Positions 17,620 through 25,944 of a stretch of 64,000 bases of DNA are shown here, one piece after another (the stretch's first letter is position 1; each line of letters opens with the position of its first letter). The position numbers were made by a program, and so were the translations under genes. The stretch comes from Alteromonas macleodii ATCC 27126 (lineage in GTDB: Bacteria; Pseudomonadota; Gammaproteobacteria; Enterobacterales; Alteromonadaceae): contig NC_018632.1 in the NCBI RefSeq assembly GCF_000172635.2, forward strand, positions 1,860,001 through 1,924,000, read 5' to 3'. Under the pieces are notes generated by a model. That model made no database searches. It was not told where the DNA came from and saw only the letters and a program-made list of their open reading frames with translations.

Positions 17620-18504
17620 GTGGTTGTGTCAAAGTACGTGAATGTTGAGGGAGCCAGCCTTCATTATTTATCCCGAGAAGAAGAGAGCGCAGAGAACCCT
17701 CTGCTTATCATGTTTCATGGCTTCCCAGAAAATGCGCACACATGGGAAGCGTTAATGGCGACACTCCCCACATCACTTGACATCATTGCCCCAGATTTGC
17801 CCGGTTATCATTTATCGAGTCCACTACCCAGTGAAACGGACTACCAAGTTCCATCATTGATAAGTCGAATGGCCGCCTTCATCGAGAAAGTTCAAAAAGG
17901 CCGAAAGGTTATTTTGTTGGGACACGATTGGGGTGGGGCAATAGCGTGGCCCCTAGCAGCCTTTCACCAAACATTAATTAGCAAACTTATTATTGTTAAT
18001 GCTGCTCATCCTTCTTGCTTTACACGGGCAATAAAGACCTCTTCTACACAAAGAGCAAAAAGCCTGTATATCTCTGCGCTTATTGATAAGGGGGCAGAGC
18101 GGACCCTTACAAATACAAGCTTTACGTTATTGAAAAATATGTTAGGCAACGGCTTTTTTGAGAAAGAAACCAGCTATTCAAGGACTCTGCTTAACGACTG
18201 GAGTAAACCTGAAACCCTCAGCGCGATGCTCAATTACTATCGGCAAATGCCTCAACAAGTGCCACAAAAGAATGTACCTGAGCACGTGTTGGATGATATT
18301 CGTGTACCCGAAATATTCATTCACTGCCCAACCCTGTTATTGTGGGGAGAGCAGGATGATGCGTTTGATCTAAGTGTACTGGATAAAATCGAACACTATG
18401 TTCCATTGATAATTAAGCGGTTTAATCCGCACGCGTCGCACTGGTTACACAGGGAAAAACCTGAATGGGTACAAAAAGAAGTGATAAATTTTATAGGGCT
18501 CTAG
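17620..18504 (+). CDS. Alpha/beta hydrolase, epoxide-hydrolase-like
   Basis: This 294-residue alpha/beta hydrolase has HGFPE and the nucleophile elbow GHDWGG (Asp nucleophile), the pattern of epoxide hydrolases and haloacetate dehalogenases. The catalytic His is probably in HASHWLHREKP near the C-terminus, and WGEQDDAF supplies the acid region. The frame opens at TTG 17557, inside the preceding terminator. I choose GTG 17620, 10 bases after an AGAGGA site; GTG 17626 is also possible. Two Asp-nucleophile hydrolases in one fatty-acid cluster is notable. Confidence 0.8.
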   Translation: MVVSKYVNVEGASLHYLSREEESAENPLLIMFHGFPENAHTWEALMATLPTSLDIIAPDLPGYHLSSPLPSETDYQVPSLISRMAAFIEKVQKGRKVILLGHDWGGAIAWPLAAFHQTLISKLIIVNAAHPSCFTRAIKTSSTQRAKSLYISALIDKGAERTLTNTSFTLLKNMLGNGFFEKETSYSRTLLNDWSKPETLSAMLNYYRQMPQQVPQKNVPEHVLDDIRVPEIFIHCPTLLLWGEQDDAFDLSVLDKIEHYVPLIIKRFNPHASHWLHREKPEWVQKEVINFIGL

Positions 18505-18512
18505 AAAGGGGT

Positions 18513-18586
18513 GAGGCCCCTAAAAGGGGCCTCCAGTGCGGCGTCCTGCCGCTACCATGTTGAATCGTTACATCACATGGTGTGAT
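18513..18586 (-). ncRNA. DUF3718 3' element, copy 1 (three hairpins with anti-start)
   Basis: This 74-base element follows the first DUF3718 stop codon. Reading along the minus strand it has hairpin ATCACA-N3-TGTGAT (18586-18572), a linker with TTCAACATGGT (18564-18554), hairpin GCGGC-N5-GCCGC (18552-18538), and hairpin GAGGCCCC-N5-GGGGCCTC (18533-18513). The linker is the exact reverse complement of the gene's start region ACCATGTTGAA (19000-18990). The last hairpin lacks a T-run here and also follows the convergent hydrolase. Confidence 0.6.
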
Positions 18587-18598
18587 TAATTAGTTATA

Positions 18599-18997
18599 TT
18601 AGATTCTGCCGTTAAGCTCTGTTGAAATAGGAGAGCTTTGAAGACCTTGTTCAGCAATCCACGCTTGAAGTGTCTTACCGTCTGACTCAGGCTCTGCTAA
18701 GTCTTTGCTTGGCATTTTCTTAACCAGTAGAGTACCTACTTCAACCGCATTGCTAGTAAGAGCAGTGCGAATTAGGCTTTGGCCGTTACAAGAAATGCCA
18801 GAGTAGTAATCGCGAAGCTTAAGTTTGTAGTCTGATTGAACGCTACGCATTTTCTTACGTAGTTCGCCCTTGTCATCTGCTTGAACAATTGTGCAAATGT
18901 TTGCAAGTGCTTCGTTGATGTCATTAGCCTGAGCTGCGTTAGAAAAAGCTAAAGTTGATGCTGCAATTACTAGAGAAGTTTTAACGATTTTCAACAT
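18599..18997 (-). CDS. DUF3718 exported protein, paralogue 1
   Basis: This 132-residue protein has a Sec signal peptide ending in AQA at about residue 24 and a mature part of about 108 residues. Cys35 (NICTIVQADDK) and Cys70 (SCNGQSL) form a conserved pair that could make a disulfide. The pattern fits DUF3718, a small exported family of Alteromonadales with no known role; the assignment is from memory of the motif. It differs from paralogue 2 at only nine positions. The ribosome site AAGGAA precedes ATG 18997 closely. The start region is complementary to its own 3' element. Confidence 0.8.
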   Translation of the reverse strand: MLKIVKTSLVIAASTLAFSNAAQANDINEALANICTIVQADDKGELRKKMRSVQSDYKLKLRDYYSGISCNGQSLIRTALTSNAVEVGTLLVKKMPSKDLAEPESDGKTLQAWIAEQGLQSSPISTELNGRI

Positions 18998-19040
18998 GGT
19001 TAAATTCCTTCGGTTGTTGTTATTAAGATTGTGTTCGTTC

Positions 19041-19115
19041 GTTGAGATGCATTAAACCCGAATCTAACTATTTGAAAAACATGTTGTAAAATAACATGGT
19101 ATGTCAATCCATACC
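19041..19115 (-). promoter_or_regulatory. Shared operator-promoter, copy 1
   Basis: The inverted repeat GGTATG-TCAATC-CATACC is at 19098-19115, the most perfect of the four copies. Reading along the minus strand there follow a -35-like TTTTTC (19079-19074), a 17-base spacer, -10 TTTAAT (19056-19051), and six bases later CAACGAAC (19044-19037). Transcription would begin close to there, about 45 bases before ATG 18997. Confidence 0.6.
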
Positions 19116-19213
19116 TAAAGTGTGAGCTTGCGTTACGAGCTCACGCATACCGTAGCTTGATTACCCAAGTCACTGGGTTGAAGAACGTGAAAATTTAAAG
19201 AGACAGAAAGTAA

Positions 19214-19287
19214 AAAGGCCCCGTAGCGGGGCCTTTCATTGCAGCTGACGCTGCAACCATGTTGAATCGACTCACATGGCTATGTGA
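19214..19287 (-). ncRNA. DUF3718 3' element, copy 2 (three hairpins with anti-start)
   Basis: This 74-base element has the same order as copy 1: hairpin TCACAT-N4-ATGTGA (19287-19272), linker with TTCAACATGGTT (19266-19255), hairpin TTGCAGC-N4-GCTGCAA (19256-19239), and terminator hairpin AAAGGCCCCG-N3-CGGGGCCTTT (19236-19214) followed by T/A-rich sequence on the minus strand. The linker is the reverse complement, over 12 bases, of the start region AACCATGTTGAA at 19698-19687. Confidence 0.65.
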
Positions 19288-19295
19288 ATTAGTGC

Positions 19296-19694
19296 TTAGA
19301 TTCTATCGTTAAGCTCAGCAGAAATTGGCGAGCTCTGTAAGCCTTGCTCTGCTATCCACGCTTGAAGTGTTTTGCCGTCTGATTCGGGCTCAGAAAGGTC
19401 TTTGCTTGGCATTTTCTTAACAAGCAGTGTACCTACCTCAACTGCGTTGTTCGTTAAGGCCGTGCGGATAAGGCTTTGACCACCGCATGAAACACCTGAG
19501 TAATAATCACGTAACTTTAATTTGAAGTCTGACTGTACGCGACGCATCTTCTTACGCAATTCGCCTTTGTCGTCAGCCTGAACAATAGTACAGATGTTTG
19601 CTAGTGCCTCGTTTACGTCATTTGCTTGTGCTGCGTTTGAAAAAGCTAATGTTGATGCTGCGATGACTAGAGAAGTTTTAACGATTTTCAACAT
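19296..19694 (-). CDS. DUF3718 exported protein, paralogue 2
   Basis: This 132-residue protein is 123/132 identical to paralogue 1, with the same signal peptide and the same Cys pair (Cys35, Cys70). The two genes are in tandem on the minus strand, about 300 bases apart, each with its own promoter and 3' element, so this is a recent tandem duplication that carried the regulatory parts along. Ribosome site AAGGAAA precedes ATG 19694. Function is unknown. Confidence 0.8.
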   Translation of the reverse strand: MLKIVKTSLVIAASTLAFSNAAQANDVNEALANICTIVQADDKGELRKKMRRVQSDFKLKLRDYYSGVSCGGQSLIRTALTNNAVEVGTLLVKKMPSKDLSEPESDGKTLQAWIAEQGLQSSPISAELNDRI

Positions 19695-19739
19695 GGTTAA
19701 ATTTCCTTCGTTATATTTGTTTAATTAATCGGTTTGTCT

Positions 19740-19815
19740 GTTCGGGATTAATTAAAAAACAATCAGGTCGAATGAAAAACATTCATTCAAATAACAAGGT
19801 ATATCGAATAATACG
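19740..19815 (-). promoter_or_regulatory. Shared operator-promoter, copy 2
   Basis: The site GGTATA-TCGAAT-AATACG at 19798-19815 is a degraded form of the inverted repeat. Along the minus strand follow -35-like TTTTTC (19779-19774), a 17-base spacer, -10 TTTAAT (19756-19751) and GAACAGAC (19743-19736). The remaining sequence up to the SorC stop at 20027 is A/T-rich; I see no gene in it. Confidence 0.55.
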
Positions 19816-20026
19816 TTAGACTAAAGATGTAAGAGGTATGAAATGCGCTGTAGCCTTTAGTATTAAAGGGCGCAGGCAAACTAAGTTGAATTGCAATTGC
19901 AGATCAATAAATAGCCAAGTAAAGTGCAAAAAAACAACGTTAATGCTGTTATTTTGCTTTTTGTTGAAGTTAATGCGTATTAAAAATGTACGCAATAGGC
20001 ATTGTATTAATAAGAAAAGAACGAAA

Positions 20027-20983
20027 TTAAGAAGTAAGCAGTGCTGAGGCAGTACGTTCTGTCGTGATGAGCCCATTGAGCAATTTCGATCGCAGAGCGC
20101 CTCTTATAGCGTGCAGTTTGTTGTCGCCCGCTGCAACACCTACTACAGGCTTTTCTGGCGTTGCTTTCAACTTAAAGCTCGTTACTCTCTCGTTAATATC
20201 GCAACTAATCAACGCACCTTCTTCATTAAAGATCCAGCTTATGATTTCGCCACTTGCACCAGATTCAGCGAGGGTTGCTAATTGATCATCGTCGATAAAT
20301 CCGTCTTTATACAATGGAGACACACTGCCTAAGTTACCAATGCCTACGAAGCTAATATCCGCTTGTTCGGCAAGCGTGTGAATTCTAGATATGTGTTGTT
20401 GCTGTTGCCAAATTTCCCGTTCTAGTTTACTTGATGCTATTACAGGGATAGGCATAGGATAATGCTGTGCTTTAACTCTGTCGGCTACGTGAACAGCAAC
20501 GTCATAACGCGTCGCCTCTCCGTTATCAGCAATATTACCAACAAGGGAAACAATTTTATGCTGAGGGCAGTGAAGTATTGACAATTCATCAGCACAGGCA
20601 CGCAGTACACGGCCAGTGCCAAACGCGATGGTTTGTGGAGCGTCGAATTTTAAAGCTCTTTCTATTGCTGCTGCACCCGCTTGACCAAGGCCAAGCGTTG
20701 AATTGGGATCGTCATCAACACTGGGCACAACTTCACAGAAAGTTAATCCGAATTTTTTCTTTATGCCTTGCGCTAATTCCATACATCTAGCAATCGGGTG
20801 TTCTAAGCGCACTTTCACAAGACCTTCCGACATGGATAACGCCACTAAGCGTTGTGCGCTTTGGCGTGATGTTTTGAGCGTTTTAGCTATCTCATCTTGC
20901 GTCTTACCACCAACATAGTACATCCATCCTGCTCTGGCGGCCTCGTCGAGTTTATTGAGTTCGTTTTGTGCTTTCTTACTCAT
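20027..20983 (-). CDS. SorC-family sugar-binding transcriptional regulator
   Basis: This 318-residue regulator has an N-terminal helix-turn-helix (GKTQDEIAKTLKTSRQSAQRLV, residues about 26-47) and a SorC/DeoR-type sugar-phosphate effector domain with FGTGRVLRACADEL and GIGNLG motifs. Such proteins respond to phosphorylated sugars or polyols. Its start overlaps the stop of the HAD phosphatase gene (ATGA at 20983-20980), so the two are translationally coupled. Divergent from it lie a permease and a mannitol-type dehydrogenase, its likely targets; an 18-base palindrome at 22015-22032 is a candidate operator. Confidence 0.86.
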   Translation of the reverse strand: MSKKAQNELNKLDEAARAGWMYYVGGKTQDEIAKTLKTSRQSAQRLVALSMSEGLVKVRLEHPIARCMELAQGIKKKFGLTFCEVVPSVDDDPNSTLGLGQAGAAAIERALKFDAPQTIAFGTGRVLRACADELSILHCPQHKIVSLVGNIADNGEATRYDVAVHVADRVKAQHYPMPIPVIASSKLEREIWQQQQHISRIHTLAEQADISFVGIGNLGSVSPLYKDGFIDDDQLATLAESGASGEIISWIFNEEGALISCDINERVTSFKLKATPEKPVVGVAAGDNKLHAIRGALRSKLLNGLITTERTASALLTS

Positions 20984-21660
20984 TTAATTTTTCTCATGTC
21001 AAAAATGTCAGGGATTCGAGAGCAAAACTCGTCCCATGAATTAATGGTGTTGTCCGATGTCACAATACAATTCTGTAGATGTGCGCCACCTGTATAGTGG
21101 AAGTAGCGCATGTCTGCGGCTTTAGCGGCAGCGATCCCCGGCTGAGAGTCTTCAATAACTAGGCAGTTTTTAGGGGCAATGTTGAGCGCATTTGCCGCAT
21201 ATAAAAATAAATCTGGTGCTGGCTTGCCTTTATTTACGAGTGCTCGCGTGAAAATGCGGCCTTCAAAATAGGAAAGAAGCCCTGTACTGGTTAACGCCTT
21301 TGTTGTTCTTTCAGGTGAACTGCTTGTGGCGACACAAAATGGAATACCTAGTGAGTTAAGTGCAGAAAGTACAGAGGTGATACCGGTAGTCTTTTGTAAA
21401 TGGCACTCGAAGCTGTCGAACAGTAATCCATGGAATTTGTTTTTCATGGACGTGGTAAGTGTGAGCGCAAAGTCATCTTTTAACTTACCCTGAACGTGCT
21501 CCATGCTCTTGCCAAGAAAATGCTCTATAAAATATTGTTTCGATAATGCAATATCGAAACTAGACAGAAGTGCTTGCCACGCCTGCATCGACAGCACTTC
21601 ACTGTCAATCAGTACGCCATCACAATCAAAAATCACCAGTTCCACGTTGTGTGCCTGCAA
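20980..21660 (-). CDS. HAD-superfamily phosphatase (beta-phosphoglucomutase/YieH-like)
   Basis: This 226-residue HAD subfamily IA protein has the nucleophile motif DCDGVLIDSE (Asp12, Asp14), the Ser/Thr motif ATSSSPERT, the Lys motif NKGKPAPD and the acidic motif VIEDSQPG. Members dephosphorylate sugar or polyol phosphates, or isomerise them. Context with a polyol dehydrogenase and SorC regulator suggests that it acts on a polyol or sugar phosphate, perhaps setting the effector level. That role is inferred. It heads a two-gene operon with the regulator. Confidence 0.85.
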   Translation of the reverse strand: MQAHNVELVIFDCDGVLIDSEVLSMQAWQALLSSFDIALSKQYFIEHFLGKSMEHVQGKLKDDFALTLTTSMKNKFHGLLFDSFECHLQKTTGITSVLSALNSLGIPFCVATSSSPERTTKALTSTGLLSYFEGRIFTRALVNKGKPAPDLFLYAANALNIAPKNCLVIEDSQPGIAAAKAADMRYFHYTGGAHLQNCIVTSDNTINSWDEFCSRIPDIFDMRKIK

Positions 21661-22100
21661 GAGTCACCTTCCTTTAAGTATTAACATTTAACCAACGTCC
21701 CCTTGCCAATTCCGTATTCGTACACCAAAGGTCAACAGGCCCTAATTATATGAACATTTGCCTAAGTGTAAGGTAATTGATGGCGTTTGTTCTACCTTAA
21801 CAAGCAGTTCTTGAGTCATACGACTACATACGCGGTTTTCGGCCTCAAATTTCGTCTCTAAAATTTCTTCATAGTATCAATTGGATAAATTATATCGCGT
21901 TTATTTTGATTGGTTAAATGTGCATTTTTATTGTGTTAATTAAATAAACAAGCCTCCATTTATTTTGTTAATGGCTGTTTACAAAGTAGAGGGTATATGC
22001 AAATATTTACAAAAATTGAGATATATCTCAATGCCTGGGCAAATGCTCTTGAAGTATTTTGAAACCAGTGGGAAATACACCTACAACACGAGATTTGAAG
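21661..22100. promoter_or_regulatory. Divergent intergenic region of the polyol locus, with 18-base palindrome
   Basis: This 440-base gap separates the HAD-SorC operon from the permease-dehydrogenase operon. The perfect palindrome ATTGAGATATATCTCAAT lies at 22015-22032, about 69 bases before the permease start, a good place for an operator. A copy of a dispersed repeat (CAAAGGTCAACAGG, then CCCTAA) is at 21726-21745. The remainder is A/T-rich; I see no gene there. Confidence 0.55.
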
Positions 22101-23816
22101 ATGAAGTCGACGTCTAGTGATATTGATATTTCACAAGTTAGTGACGAGCAACTCCCCGTCGCTAAACATAAACTGAAAGGCTGGAAGCATTTCATGGGCT
22201 TGTACGCCGGTGAACATGTTGCAGCCACTGAATTTGTATTTGGTGCAACCTTTGTTGCGCTAGGCGCCACCATGACCGACATTCTGTTGGGTTTATTAAT
22301 TGGTAATCTACTTGCTGTCCTAAGCTGGACACTTATCACTACGCCTATCGCTGTAGATACCCGTTTGAGCTTGTACTCGTATCTTCAGAAAATAGCTGGC
22401 GACTCTATGACCAAGCTCTATAACTGGGCGAATGTCATCATATTTACAGTGATATCGGCCGCTATGATTACGGTGTCGGCAACCGCCGTGCGTTTTGCAT
22501 TGAACATTCCGGCGCAGTTAAATTGGTATCCGACTAATTTAGCTTTTGTTGCCGTCGTGCTTGCAGTCGGTGTGATAGTTGTCTTTGTCGCTATGTATGG
22601 CTTTAACGCCGTTTCCAATTTTTCTCGTATTTGTGCGCCTTGGTTGTTCACCATGTTCATTTGCGGTCCACTTATTCTAATGCCTGCACTCGCTGAATCT
22701 GTAATTGGGCAAACGTTTCTTACATCGTGGAATGACTTTATTCATATCGGTAGTACATCGGTGTGGACGGGCTTCACCCAAAGTGGTGAGCCTGGTATTG
22801 GTTTATTAGAAGTGATTGGCTTTTCGTGGGCAGCGAACACAATAACGCATTTCGGCCTTATTGATATGGCATTACTGCGTTTTGCCAAGCGTAAACGTTA
22901 CGGTTTATGTACGTCGGCGGGTATGTTATTTGGTCATTATATTGCATGGATTTCAGCCGGTATTATGGGCGCAGGAACAGCGGTTATTGTTCAAAAGTCC
23001 ATTGGTAAATTAGACCCGGGCGATGTGGCTTTCCATGCATTAGGTCTTTCTGGACTCGTTATTGTTATCGTTGCAGGTTGGACTACAGCAAACGCGAATC
23101 TCTATCGCGCTGGACTTGCCGCGCAAGCCATTTTTAAAGATAAATCACGTACCACAACGACCGCGGTCGTCGGTATGGTCACCGTTGCAATTGCGTGTTT
23201 CCCGTTCGTGTTTACTAAATTACTGCCACTGTTAACGTATGCTGGATTACTTGTTGTTCCTGTAGGAGCAATTGTGTTCGCAGAGCACATGATTTTTCCG
23301 CGTATTGGATTCACACGTTATTGGGCACATTATCAAAGCCTTACTCACAGCACGCCAGCGGTAGCGAGTTGGGGTTTGGGGCTTGTGTTTGGCTTTGGTT
23401 TAAACGTCTTAGACGTCATGTCTTTCTACTATCTATTCATACCCACGTGGTTCTTCACCATAGTTGTCTATACAGCGCTGGCCGCCAAGTATGGCGCAAA
23501 ACAAGCTTATCCTGAGCAAGAAGCACAAGTAGATGCTTTCAATGCACGTGTTGAAGCTTATCAGCAGCAAGAAGCGGCGTTAGAAAACGAACACGTTGAA
23601 GACGTTACTGCCGTATCTAAATTACTGCGTCTTACTTCGCTAGCGAGTTTGTTGGTGTCCATAGCATTGGCAATCAAAACTTTTTCTCTTAGTGACACGG
23701 TTGCCGCTTACGAATTGAACCGAGACCTATTCTTTAATGTTGGGTTCGCGTGCACCGTTATCTATTTCGTTACTGCGTATTGGGCGATGCGTCGCCACAA
23801 AGCGTTACAAAGCTAA
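22101..23816 (+). CDS. NCS1-family permease (purine/cytosine permease-like)
   Basis: This integral membrane protein, about 571 residues from ATG 22101, has some twelve hydrophobic segments and the NCS1 look: GEHVAATEFVFGATFVALG in the first helix and IGFSWAANTITHFGL in the middle. The best-known NCS1 members carry cytosine, hydantoin or allantoin with H+ or Na+. Here the gene is followed 10 bases later by a mannitol-type dehydrogenase and faces a SorC regulator, so a polyol is a likely cargo; that is inference. The frame opens at TTG 22059; I chose the first ATG, though the ribosome site is weak. Confidence 0.82.
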   Translation: MKSTSSDIDISQVSDEQLPVAKHKLKGWKHFMGLYAGEHVAATEFVFGATFVALGATMTDILLGLLIGNLLAVLSWTLITTPIAVDTRLSLYSYLQKIAGDSMTKLYNWANVIIFTVISAAMITVSATAVRFALNIPAQLNWYPTNLAFVAVVLAVGVIVVFVAMYGFNAVSNFSRICAPWLFTMFICGPLILMPALAESVIGQTFLTSWNDFIHIGSTSVWTGFTQSGEPGIGLLEVIGFSWAANTITHFGLIDMALLRFAKRKRYGLCTSAGMLFGHYIAWISAGIMGAGTAVIVQKSIGKLDPGDVAFHALGLSGLVIVIVAGWTTANANLYRAGLAAQAIFKDKSRTTTTAVVGMVTVAIACFPFVFTKLLPLLTYAGLLVVPVGAIVFAEHMIFPRIGFTRYWAHYQSLTHSTPAVASWGLGLVFGFGLNVLDVMSFYYLFIPTWFFTIVVYTALAAKYGAKQAYPEQEAQVDAFNARVEAYQQQEAALENEHVEDVTAVSKLLRLTSLASLLVSIALAIKTFSLSDTVAAYELNRDLFFNVGFACTVIYFVTAYWAMRRHKALQS

Positions 23817-23826
23817 TAAGGTTCTT

Positions 23827-25344
23827 ATGCAATCTCAAACGTCTATTTTATTGAACAGAGCGAACTTATCGTCGTTGCCAAATGACATAAGGCGTCCAGC
23901 TTATGATGTGGAGAACGTTCAAACGGGTATTGTTCACATTGGTGTGGGTGGTTTTCATCGGGCACATGAAGCCATGTATGTAGACAGATTAATGGCAAAA
24001 ACCGGCGATCTATCGTGGGGCATTTGTGGTGTGGGTCTTCGCGAGAACGACCGTGCGATGAAAAAAGTGTTCGACGAACAAGATAACTTATATACCTTGG
24101 TTGAAAAGCACAATGACGGTTCCCGCAGTGCATCAGTTATCGGTGCAATGACGGGGTTTTTAATGGCGCCGGACGATCCTCAAGCAGTCATTGATAAAAT
24201 GGCTGAGCCCGAAGTACGCATCGTATCGTTAACCATTACCGAAGGTGGCTATAATTTTGATGCTTCCTCAGGGGAATTTATTACCACTAACCCTGATGTC
24301 ATTCACGATATCGAAAACCCCAAAACGCCTAAACTGGTTTTCGGCTATTTAGTTGCAGCGCTTAAAAAACGCAAAGAAAATAACGTAAGGCCTTTTACCG
24401 TTATGTCCTGTGACAATATTCAACACAATGGCCATGTGTTAAAGAAAATGCTGCTTGCGTATATTGAACTGTTTGACCAAGCGTTTGCTAGTTGGGTTGA
24501 CGAAAACGTGAGTTTCCCTAATTCAATGGTAGACAGAATAACGCCTGCAACCACAAATGAAGATATCGCAACGTTATGGGCTCAGGGCGTAGAAGATGCT
24601 TGGCCTGTAGTGTGTGAGCCTTTTGACCAGTGGGTTATTGAAGATGACTTTTGCAATACCAAGCCGTGTTTAGATTTAGTAGGCGCGCAGTTTGTAAGCG
24701 ATGTGGCACCGTACGAAAAGCTTAAGCTTCGTATGCTTAATGCGGGCCATTCAGTACTTGGGTTGGTTGGTTCTGTAGCAGGGCTTGAAACTATCCATGA
24801 AAGTGTTGAAGCGAAACAGTTAAAGCGTCTTCTATCAATCTTTATGGAACAAGAGGTTATGCCAACACTCGACCCAGTAGAGGGGATTGACGTGTATGAA
24901 TACAGAGATACGCTGCTATCTCGTTTCTCCAACCCTTTCATTAAAGATACGCTAGCGCGAATTTGCCTTGAAAGTTCGGCTAAGCTTCCGGTGTTTTTAT
25001 TTCCCACCGTACGAGATAATTTGGCGGCCAACAGAGACACCGATATAAGTGCTTTAGTTGTTGCTTGCTGGGCCTTCTATTCAGACAGGCATGCCTCTCA
25101 AGACGGGAAGTCACTTGAAATCAACGATGTGTTAGCTGATAAGTTACACAACGCGGCTAGTAATAACCAAATAGACAGCCTTAGTTTTTTAATGCTAGAA
25201 GAAGTATTTGGTAAGCTGGTTGATGAAGCGCGTTTTACCGCTAGTTTCCAGGGCTTTGTAGAGCGCTTGTATCAACAAGAGCCGGTGTTGCTGATTAGCG
25301 AAAAGGTAGCAAACAATAAACTCGAGCTTGCCAGAGCTTGTTAG
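23827..25344 (+). CDS. Mannitol 2-dehydrogenase-family polyol dehydrogenase
   Basis: This long-chain polyol dehydrogenase, 505 residues from ATG 23827, oxidises a polyol such as mannitol to a ketose with NAD+. It has the N-terminal NAD motif HIGVGGFHRAH and the active-site run with Lys300, Asn305 and His308 (KLRMLNAGH), as in Pseudomonas mannitol 2-dehydrogenase. D-arabinitol dehydrogenase and fructuronate reductase are relatives and cannot be excluded. The frame is open 30 codons further up inside the permease gene, but AAGG just before ATG 23827 and the usual length favour this start. A terminator follows at 25374-25400. Confidence 0.88.
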   Translation: MQSQTSILLNRANLSSLPNDIRRPAYDVENVQTGIVHIGVGGFHRAHEAMYVDRLMAKTGDLSWGICGVGLRENDRAMKKVFDEQDNLYTLVEKHNDGSRSASVIGAMTGFLMAPDDPQAVIDKMAEPEVRIVSLTITEGGYNFDASSGEFITTNPDVIHDIENPKTPKLVFGYLVAALKKRKENNVRPFTVMSCDNIQHNGHVLKKMLLAYIELFDQAFASWVDENVSFPNSMVDRITPATTNEDIATLWAQGVEDAWPVVCEPFDQWVIEDDFCNTKPCLDLVGAQFVSDVAPYEKLKLRMLNAGHSVLGLVGSVAGLETIHESVEAKQLKRLLSIFMEQEVMPTLDPVEGIDVYEYRDTLLSRFSNPFIKDTLARICLESSAKLPVFLFPTVRDNLAANRDTDISALVVACWAFYSDRHASQDGKSLEINDVLADKLHNAASNNQIDSLSFLMLEEVFGKLVDEARFTASFQGFVERLYQQEPVLLISEKVANNKLELARAC

Positions 25345-25373
25345 ATTGTATTGGTAATCTGCATTAGTACGAA

Positions 25374-25400
25374 GGGGAGTAGGGAATACTCTCCTTTTTT
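25374..25400 (+). terminator. Terminator of the permease-dehydrogenase operon
   Basis: GGGGAGTA (25374-25381) pairs with TACTCTCC (25387-25394) with one G-U pair, followed by six T residues. Confidence 0.8.
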
Positions 25401-25434
25401 ATGCATTGAATTTTATAGACTGATACAAAAGAAA

Positions 25435-25508
25435 AAAGCGACCCGAGGGTCGCTTTCTAAAGTGCAGATTTCTCTGCAACCATGTTGAACTGGTTCACAT
25501 GGTGTGAA
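25435..25508 (-). ncRNA. DUF3718 3' element, copy 3 (three hairpins with anti-start)
   Basis: The third 74-base copy reads along the minus strand: hairpin TTCACA-N3-TGTGAA (25508-25494), linker with TTCAACATGGTT (25489-25478), hairpin TGCAGA-N4-TCTGCA (25478-25463), and terminator hairpin AAAGCGACC-N4-GGTCGCTTT (25456-25435) followed by a T-run. The linker is the reverse complement, over 12 bases, of the start region AACCATGTTGAA at 25911-25900. Confidence 0.65.
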
Positions 25509-25514
25509 ACTGTT

Positions 25515-25907
25515 TTATAGGCGGTCGTTGATAACCGCAGCAATTGGGTTATCTTGCAGACCGTTTTCCGCAACCCAAGCTTGAAGTGTTTTTCCGTCAG
25601 CTTCAGGTGCTTCTAAATCACTTTTTGGCATTTTCTTAACAAGTAACTCGCCAGCTTCTAAAGCATTGTTTAGCAGTGCTGTACGAATTAGGCTGTTACC
25701 GCCACAGCTAATTGCTGAGTAGTAGTCTTTAAGTTTCATACGGTAGTCTGATTCGACTGAACGCATTTTCTTACGTAGTTCGCCTTTATCGTCCGCTTGA
25801 ACGATAGTGCAAATATTCGCTAGTGCTTCGTTAACATCAGCCTGTGCTACGCCCGACACACCTAATGTCGCTGCGATAACAAGAGAAGTTTTAACAATTT
25901 TCAACAT
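25515..25907 (-). CDS. DUF3718 exported protein, paralogue 3
   Basis: This 130-residue protein is a more diverged member of the set. The signal peptide differs (IAATLGVSGVAQAD), but the core with Cys33 and Cys68 and the C-terminal DGKTLQAWVAENGLQ are kept. It is about 5.8 kb from the tandem pair, on the other side of the polyol locus, and again has its own shared promoter and 3' element. Ribosome site GAGGAA precedes ATG 25907. Function is unknown. Confidence 0.8.
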   Translation of the reverse strand: MLKIVKTSLVIAATLGVSGVAQADVNEALANICTIVQADDKGELRKKMRSVESDYRMKLKDYYSAISCGGNSLIRTALLNNALEAGELLVKKMPKSDLEAPEADGKTLQAWVAENGLQDNPIAAVINDRL

Positions 25908-25944
25908 GGTTAATTCCTCAAGTACTTCTATAGATTGTTTGTTT

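Follow-up and report, generated by a model that had tools for sequence, protein, structure and literature searches.

In the fold-back of hok mRNA, the 3' end of the molecule is complementary to its own initiation part, and the RNA refolds between alternative hairpins; hok/Sok is a type I system whose product is a small toxic membrane peptide of ~50 amino acids (aa). OppZ and CarZ of Vibrio cholerae are small RNAs (sRNAs) from 3' untranslated regions (UTRs) that repress their own transcripts, together with Hfq (excerpts of PMC7398697). In icaR of Staphylococcus aureus, the 3' UTR pairs with the Shine-Dalgarno region, and the excerpted text of PMC3868564 leaves open whether it does so in cis or in trans. 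Here we analyse a window of 64,000 nucleotides (nt) from Alteromonas macleodii ATCC 27126 (NC_018632.1, positions 1,860,001 to 1,924,000), in which three genes of the DUF3718 family are each followed by a structured 3'-UTR element complementary to the start of the same gene. Judging from its sequence, this conserved antisense RNA is most likely an autoregulatory sRNA that serves all of the paralogues.

The three genes are encoded on the minus strand and match PF12514. Gene A (18599..18997, 132 aa; E=1.6e-21) has a signal-peptide-like N-terminus, as judged by eye; gene B (19296..19694, 132 aa) is 93% identical to A, and gene C (25515..25907, 130 aa) is 75% identical to A. The sequence-only reading had placed an element shortly after each stop codon, and direct inspection bears this out: the elements lie on the same strand, 6-12 nt past the stops, at 18513..18586 (A), 19214..19287 (B) and 25435..25508 (C). 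These coordinates stand, but the claim that every copy measures exactly 74 nt does not, as the length is set by where the hairpins are cut and an arm of copy B extends to 19288. All copies can form three hairpins in identical order, the layout being a hairpin region, TTCAACATGGT(T), a GC hairpin and a hairpin that resembles a Rho-independent terminator. A consensus scan of 18400-19900 called the terminator of copy B and not that of copy A, whose U tract is weak; in copy C the terminator was read by eye as a strong stem followed by six U.

The linker that follows the first hairpin is complementary to the start of its own gene, as had been claimed. In copy A the seed UUCAACAUGGU (18554..18564) matches the target ACCAUGUUGAA (18990..19000, with the start codon at 18997-18995) over 11 nt, and in copies B and C the seed UUCAACAUGGUU (19255..19266 and 25478..25489) matches the target AACCAUGUUGAA (19687..19698 and 25900..25911) over 12 nt, all on the minus strand. 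In each gene this is the longest exact match between the start and the 3' UTR. For comparison, 37 other window open reading frames (ORFs) with a length of at least 150 aa were examined, an unfiltered set that includes some that are not genes; 35 have a longest match of 5-8 nt, and the other two reach 9 and 10 nt. Pairing is predicted to resume beyond a two-base bulge in copies A and B, with 7 and 4 further pairs, and the predicted energy (ddG) of seed-target pairing in trans is -15.2, -13.3 and -8.3 kcal/mol for A, B and C. Two hallmarks of a 3'-UTR sRNA are present, namely a 3'-UTR location with an end at an intrinsic terminator (called in copy B, not in A) and complementarity of the seed to the parent mRNA's translation initiation region. 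In the genome as a whole, sites for CCATGTTGAA are more frequent than for a reversed control (26 vs 5); the three starts and the three seeds account for six, and among the remaining 20, most of which look gene-internal, five open an ATG frame of >40 aa, none of them established as a start.

Each element region folds better than all 200 of its dinucleotide shuffles (z of -4.6, -5.0 and -6.0). Covariation was assessed in an alignment (A1) of the three window copies and 37 further loci hand-chosen from 59, with some ends extended; its terminator part is poorly aligned. Across these 40 elements, 91.0% of cells in the GC hairpin are paired, and three of its five pairs change on both sides (for example, an A-U is replaced by G-C in 14 sequences), which supports the proposal that the RNA structure is under selection. 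A second hairpin, ACCAUGU:ACAUGGU, closes most of the seed against an upstream mimic of the start site and is paired in 94.4% of cells. Scored jointly, the two hairpins reach a covariation score of 0.257 compared with 0.128 in shuffles, and none of 500 shuffles scored as high, with the caveat that kinship among sequences can push such scores above shuffles without any structure. The earlier statement that arm changes preserve pairing holds for the GC hairpin, but less clearly for the first hairpin. Counted in copy A's register, 66.1% of cells are paired in the latter; the figure is an underestimate, since some copies, B among them, use a shifted register for this hairpin.

When the three elements are folded alone, the mimic-seed hairpin is chosen and the linker pairs with the ACCAUGU mimic. 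The linker had been described as a free strand between two hairpins, which is probably wrong given this predicted pairing in the free RNA. Once the target is added to the folding, the seed pairs with the start and the first hairpin forms in all three copies. In these models, the mimic-seed fold is probably the free state and the first hairpin of the sequence-only reading the bound state.

Conservation indicates that the element is old. The 9-mer TCAACATGG occurs within at most 150 nt of the stop in 118 of 135 full-length close DUF3718 genes, and all 118 genes begin CATGTTGAA. They come from Alteromonas, Salinimonas, Marisediminitalea, Aestuariibacter, Aliiglaciecola and Paraglaciecola, and this spread supports great age rather than recent duplication. 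A further genus (L185, L212, L214, L215) keeps both start and seed, with the protein N-terminus altered past MLK, and some Aliiglaciecola and Aestuariibacter copies have lost the first hairpin and retained the seed. The nine TCAACATGG columns of alignment A1 are invariant by construction, because every row was picked for holding the 9-mer; the T that follows, for which no selection was made, is retained in 117 of 118. In a set of 227 DUF3718 genes, all 120 that carry the 9-mer begin ATGTTGAA. The sequence-only reading had named three things that would speak against it, and none was found: the seed is constant, the GC hairpin shows covariation, and the element did not arise by recent duplication. 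We also considered codon 2 as evidence and rejected it. It is TTG in 125 of 126 element-bearing genes (the exception, L215, has a mis-called start) vs 202 of 1699 Leu codons elsewhere in these genes, and it was not relied on because ATGTTG also opens 16 of 17 element-free genes.

The repeat could instead be a site for a protein, on DNA or RNA, or a mere terminator or protection of the 3' end, with the match to the start left over from an inverted duplication. A terminator-like hairpin does end the element, the mimic-seed hairpin is palindromic, and element-free copies can conserve the start too. A leftover should diverge in step with the sequence around it, yet the 9-mer is unchanged in those 118 genes, it is kept behind another host gene, and some genes of other DUF3718 lineages are antisense to their own starts with other sequences (see below). 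We consider this explanation improbable.

The RNA model (R1) built on alignment A1 matches element A at 18507-18596 (71.7 bits), element B (63.7 bits) and element C (76.6 bits). DUF3718 genes are found in 58 of 59 genomes of the genus, as are matches to the model. Among the matches listed, 150 from the genus were compared with 150 listed DUF3718 places; 134 of these matches share the strand of such a place and follow it closely downstream (-11 to +120 nt), in line with the expectation that matches would come after DUF3718 genes. A family-wide search gave matches in 64 of 395 genomes and 11 of 52 genera, the matches in two of these genera being false positives. Among 20 inspected matches outside the genus, 16 have DUF3718 upstream (weak in L431, partial in L438 and L444), the sequence is too short to judge in L436 and L442, and L447 and L448 are false positives.

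The 16 listed genus matches that do not adjoin a listed DUF3718 gene bear on how the element might act. Seven follow a gene for a different small protein of ~90 aa (L401:694-966, L402, L403, L408-L411), 0.5-8 kb from a DUF3718 gene by coordinates. These small proteins, judged by eye only to be secreted and of one family, end in LPxxL(I/V)A(R/NP) or similar, and a Pfam search of three of them gave no family above the cut-off. For the seeds of the seven elements, predicted pairing energies are -16.9 to -20.0 kcal/mol with the start of window gene A, vs -3.7 to -9.5 kcal/mol with the start of their own host. At L398, seed and terminator follow an SDR gene with no intervening ORF of at least 40 aa, and the locus may be a free-standing sRNA gene. 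L399 and L400 have the seed and lie at contig ends. L404-L407 and L412 do not contain TCAACATGG and probably represent chance matches or decayed copies; at L407 and L412 this seedless copy stands after an SDR gene similar to that of L398. For the last match, G044:C1:280, the locus of matching coordinates (L039) shows a DUF3718 end there. Outside the genus, the DUF3718 gene L437 has a changed start and has kept the seed.

These loci bear on a second alternative, a cis-only fold-back of the kind proposed for icaR or hok, in which each mRNA molecule pairs its own 3' end with its start codon and no RNA is released. It would account for the 134 listed elements that follow a DUF3718 gene, and for the agreement between element and carrier start in all 120 element-bearing DUF3718 genes; icaR, as the excerpts of PMC3868564 present it, is a studied case of such pairing between 5' and 3' UTRs. 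The agreement fails for all seven small-gene elements, whose hosts have non-matching starts, and for L437; L398 has no host ORF of at least 40 aa. Coupled translation would, moreover, load ribosomes before the 3' UTR exists, a point of general knowledge that is also made in the excerpted part of PMC3868564. We regard the cis-only device as unlikely. Since it leaves the small-gene elements, L398 and L437 unexplained, we favour a trans-acting RNA aimed at DUF3718 mRNAs; between the two mechanisms offered by the sequence-only reading, a released RNA acting in trans thus fits better and the hok-like fold-back in cis less well.

We therefore think it reasonably probable that the 3' UTR of each DUF3718 mRNA is a small antisense RNA, released or attached, that represses its own and its sister mRNAs. 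In the proposed mechanism, the mRNA would end in a structured 3' UTR of ~75-90 nt acting as antisense RNA, with most of the seed closed in the hairpin with the ACCAUGU target mimic while the RNA is free. The seed UUCAACAUGGU would pair with ACCAUGUUGAA across the start codon, in its own mRNA and in sister DUF3718 mRNAs, and block ribosome loading. Target binding would free the mimic, which would refold into the first hairpin, and the outcome would be negative feedback common to the paralogues. RNA release, dependence on Hfq and RNase E, action in trans and repression are all putative; hfq is present in the genome.

Several results weigh against this interpretation. Whole-transcript folding predicts that the linker pairs with the start in cis, with probabilities of 0.98, 0.96 and 0.94 for A, B and C, as the cis-only device would have it. 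Within the Alteromonas-type lineage, the duplex energy beats all 100 shuffles in only 17 of 69 tested genes (of 149), with a mean z of -2.06. In the covariation test, neither pairs with changes on both sides (3 vs 2.6 in shuffles) nor further pair types (11 vs 11.9) stand out in number. Covariation between seed and start is invisible in this lineage because both are invariant. Lastly, 20 of 107 element-free DUF3718 genes also begin ATGTTGAA, so conservation of the start alone is no proof of pairing; on sequence grounds, these 20 genes are compatible with targets in trans and also with plain inheritance.

Pairing might also activate or protect, by shielding the 5' end from decay or keeping the mRNA in reserve, as the sign of regulation is not given by sequence alone. 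The seed covers the start codon, and in some genes of a second lineage (clade B) the antisense spans the whole ribosome-binding site; antisense over these sites is the usual layout for repression. We hold an activating role to be very improbable and retain repression as the expected effect.

Covariation of linker and start, not visible in the Alteromonas-type lineage, was sought in other DUF3718 lineages, with partial success. Clade B genes begin AAGGUUAUUAAAAUGAAAAAAUUAUUACUAG, and some of them have a 3' UTR antisense to the ribosome-binding site of the same gene; among 61 genes tested (of 89), 13, belonging to six genera, have a duplex energy better than that of all 100 shuffles. The signal is confined to these 13, the clade as a whole having a mean z of -1.49 and a median of -0.42. 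The duplex of L268 reaches -36.6 kcal/mol (z -10.9), and L304 could form nineteen pairs in a row, including one G-U. At position +20 the 13 duplexes have C-G in 10 and U-A in 3, in genes selected by z and with each duplex fitted separately. Among 86 clade B genes, the start AATA occurs with UTR TATTT in 10 of 20 and never with TAG at that place, and the start ACTA with TAG in 27 of 48 and never with TATTT (CTATT once, CTAGA once); this association may represent one or a few events. A version of the duplex test with crude terminator trimming was rejected (median z 0.00, 45 of 89 tested), as the trimming had removed the second box.

A third family (f7, clade C) carries a 3' stretch GUUAGCUCCUCUC that matches the Shine-Dalgarno region over 8-10 nt in 6 of 32 genes (L228, L229, L231, L233, L234, L242), and the duplex test supports 4 of 20 tested genes from a cluster of 23. 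The Shine-Dalgarno match aside, most other DUF3718 genes gave no antisense signal. Those we label Shewanella-like, by resemblance, have different starts and no such element where inspected, and in the duplex test their cluster has a mean z of 0.01, and none of the 28 genes tested (of 42) exceeded all shuffles; nothing clear emerged from the smaller clusters. Outside the Alteromonas-type lineage, exact complements of at least 10 nt occur in 7 of 167 genes, some of them closely related, vs 1.0 expected from swapped UTRs. With one representative for each of 31 protein clusters, the mean is 1.28 for own vs 0.31 for swapped UTRs, a weak excess. L253 (11 nt) and L258 (14 nt) are single cases.

Tentatively, and with some doubt, we suggest that DUF3718 genes repeatedly gained, or kept despite sequence change, 3' UTRs antisense to their own ribosome-binding sites. 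These would take the form of a start-codon seed in Alteromonas and relatives, a collinear antisense of ~40 nt over the whole ribosome-binding site in part of the second lineage, and possibly an anti-Shine-Dalgarno loop in the third family. As an sRNA in control of every paralogue, the Alteromonas seed RNA would also have transferred to a different host gene and to a free-standing site.

Other features were noted in and around these genes. The DUF3718 3' UTRs of L258 and L260 (genus g9) contain a stem-loop that may be an RNA element of its own: its long stem, GUCACUCACC/GGUGAGUGAC in L258 with UUGACGCCUC in the loop, has arms that are jointly changed to GUCACUUGCC/GGCAAGUGAC in L260. In the window, a gene for a Fur-family regulator (PF01475, 26245-26697) is divergent from and upstream of DUF3718 gene C. 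Promoter-like matches in 18400-19900 are near chance (4 vs 2.9 expected). The Rfam 15 covariance models gave four matches in the window, none at the elements, where no family was above its gathering score. Residues C35, R47 and C70 of DUF3718 are invariant in 47 chosen sequences, and in a PDB sequence search, which gave only weak matches, the C-terminal half of the gene A (18599-18997) product matched designed ankyrin-repeat-like proteins (best E 0.015). Reading of the window revealed no hok-type antitoxin RNA, and no search aimed at antitoxin RNA was made. The literature searched contained no match for DUF3718 as a term and nothing on Alteromonadales sRNA combined with untranslated region; papers that mention Alteromonas together with sRNA terms, by title and the start of the abstract, did not address the topic.

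If the proposal is true, DUF3718 would provide a paralogue-wide and ancient autoregulatory 3'-UTR sRNA, to be placed beside OppZ and CarZ, and a first handle on the family. An antisense logic shared by lineages that differ in sequence, copies that lack the element and a swapped host gene make up a natural experiment, and such ready-made variants would allow the cis-or-trans question left open for icaR to be tested.

The resemblance to hok lies in a 3' end complementary to the start of the same mRNA and in refolding between alternative hairpins. The difference is that DUF3718 proteins, at 130-132 aa, are not small toxin-like peptides, a distinction that is by size only. With icaR, going by the excerpts of PMC3868564, the elements share complementarity of the 3' UTR to the ribosome-binding region within one mRNA. 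In icaR a UCCCCUG motif pairs at the Shine-Dalgarno sequence, whereas the DUF3718 seed covers the start codon; and an ectopic icaR 3' UTR left chromosomal icaR unchanged, whereas DUF3718 elements are also found behind another gene. OppZ and CarZ, as described in the excerpts of PMC7398697, resemble the elements in 3'-UTR location, Rho-independent terminator and pairing with the parent transcript's translation initiation region. They derive from operon ends, whereas the DUF3718 element, for which processing and Hfq dependence are putative, ends single small genes. Compared with OppZ and CarZ as presented there, it is also distinguished by several paralogous copies with one shared seed, by its occurrence in several genera and by its presence behind a different gene.

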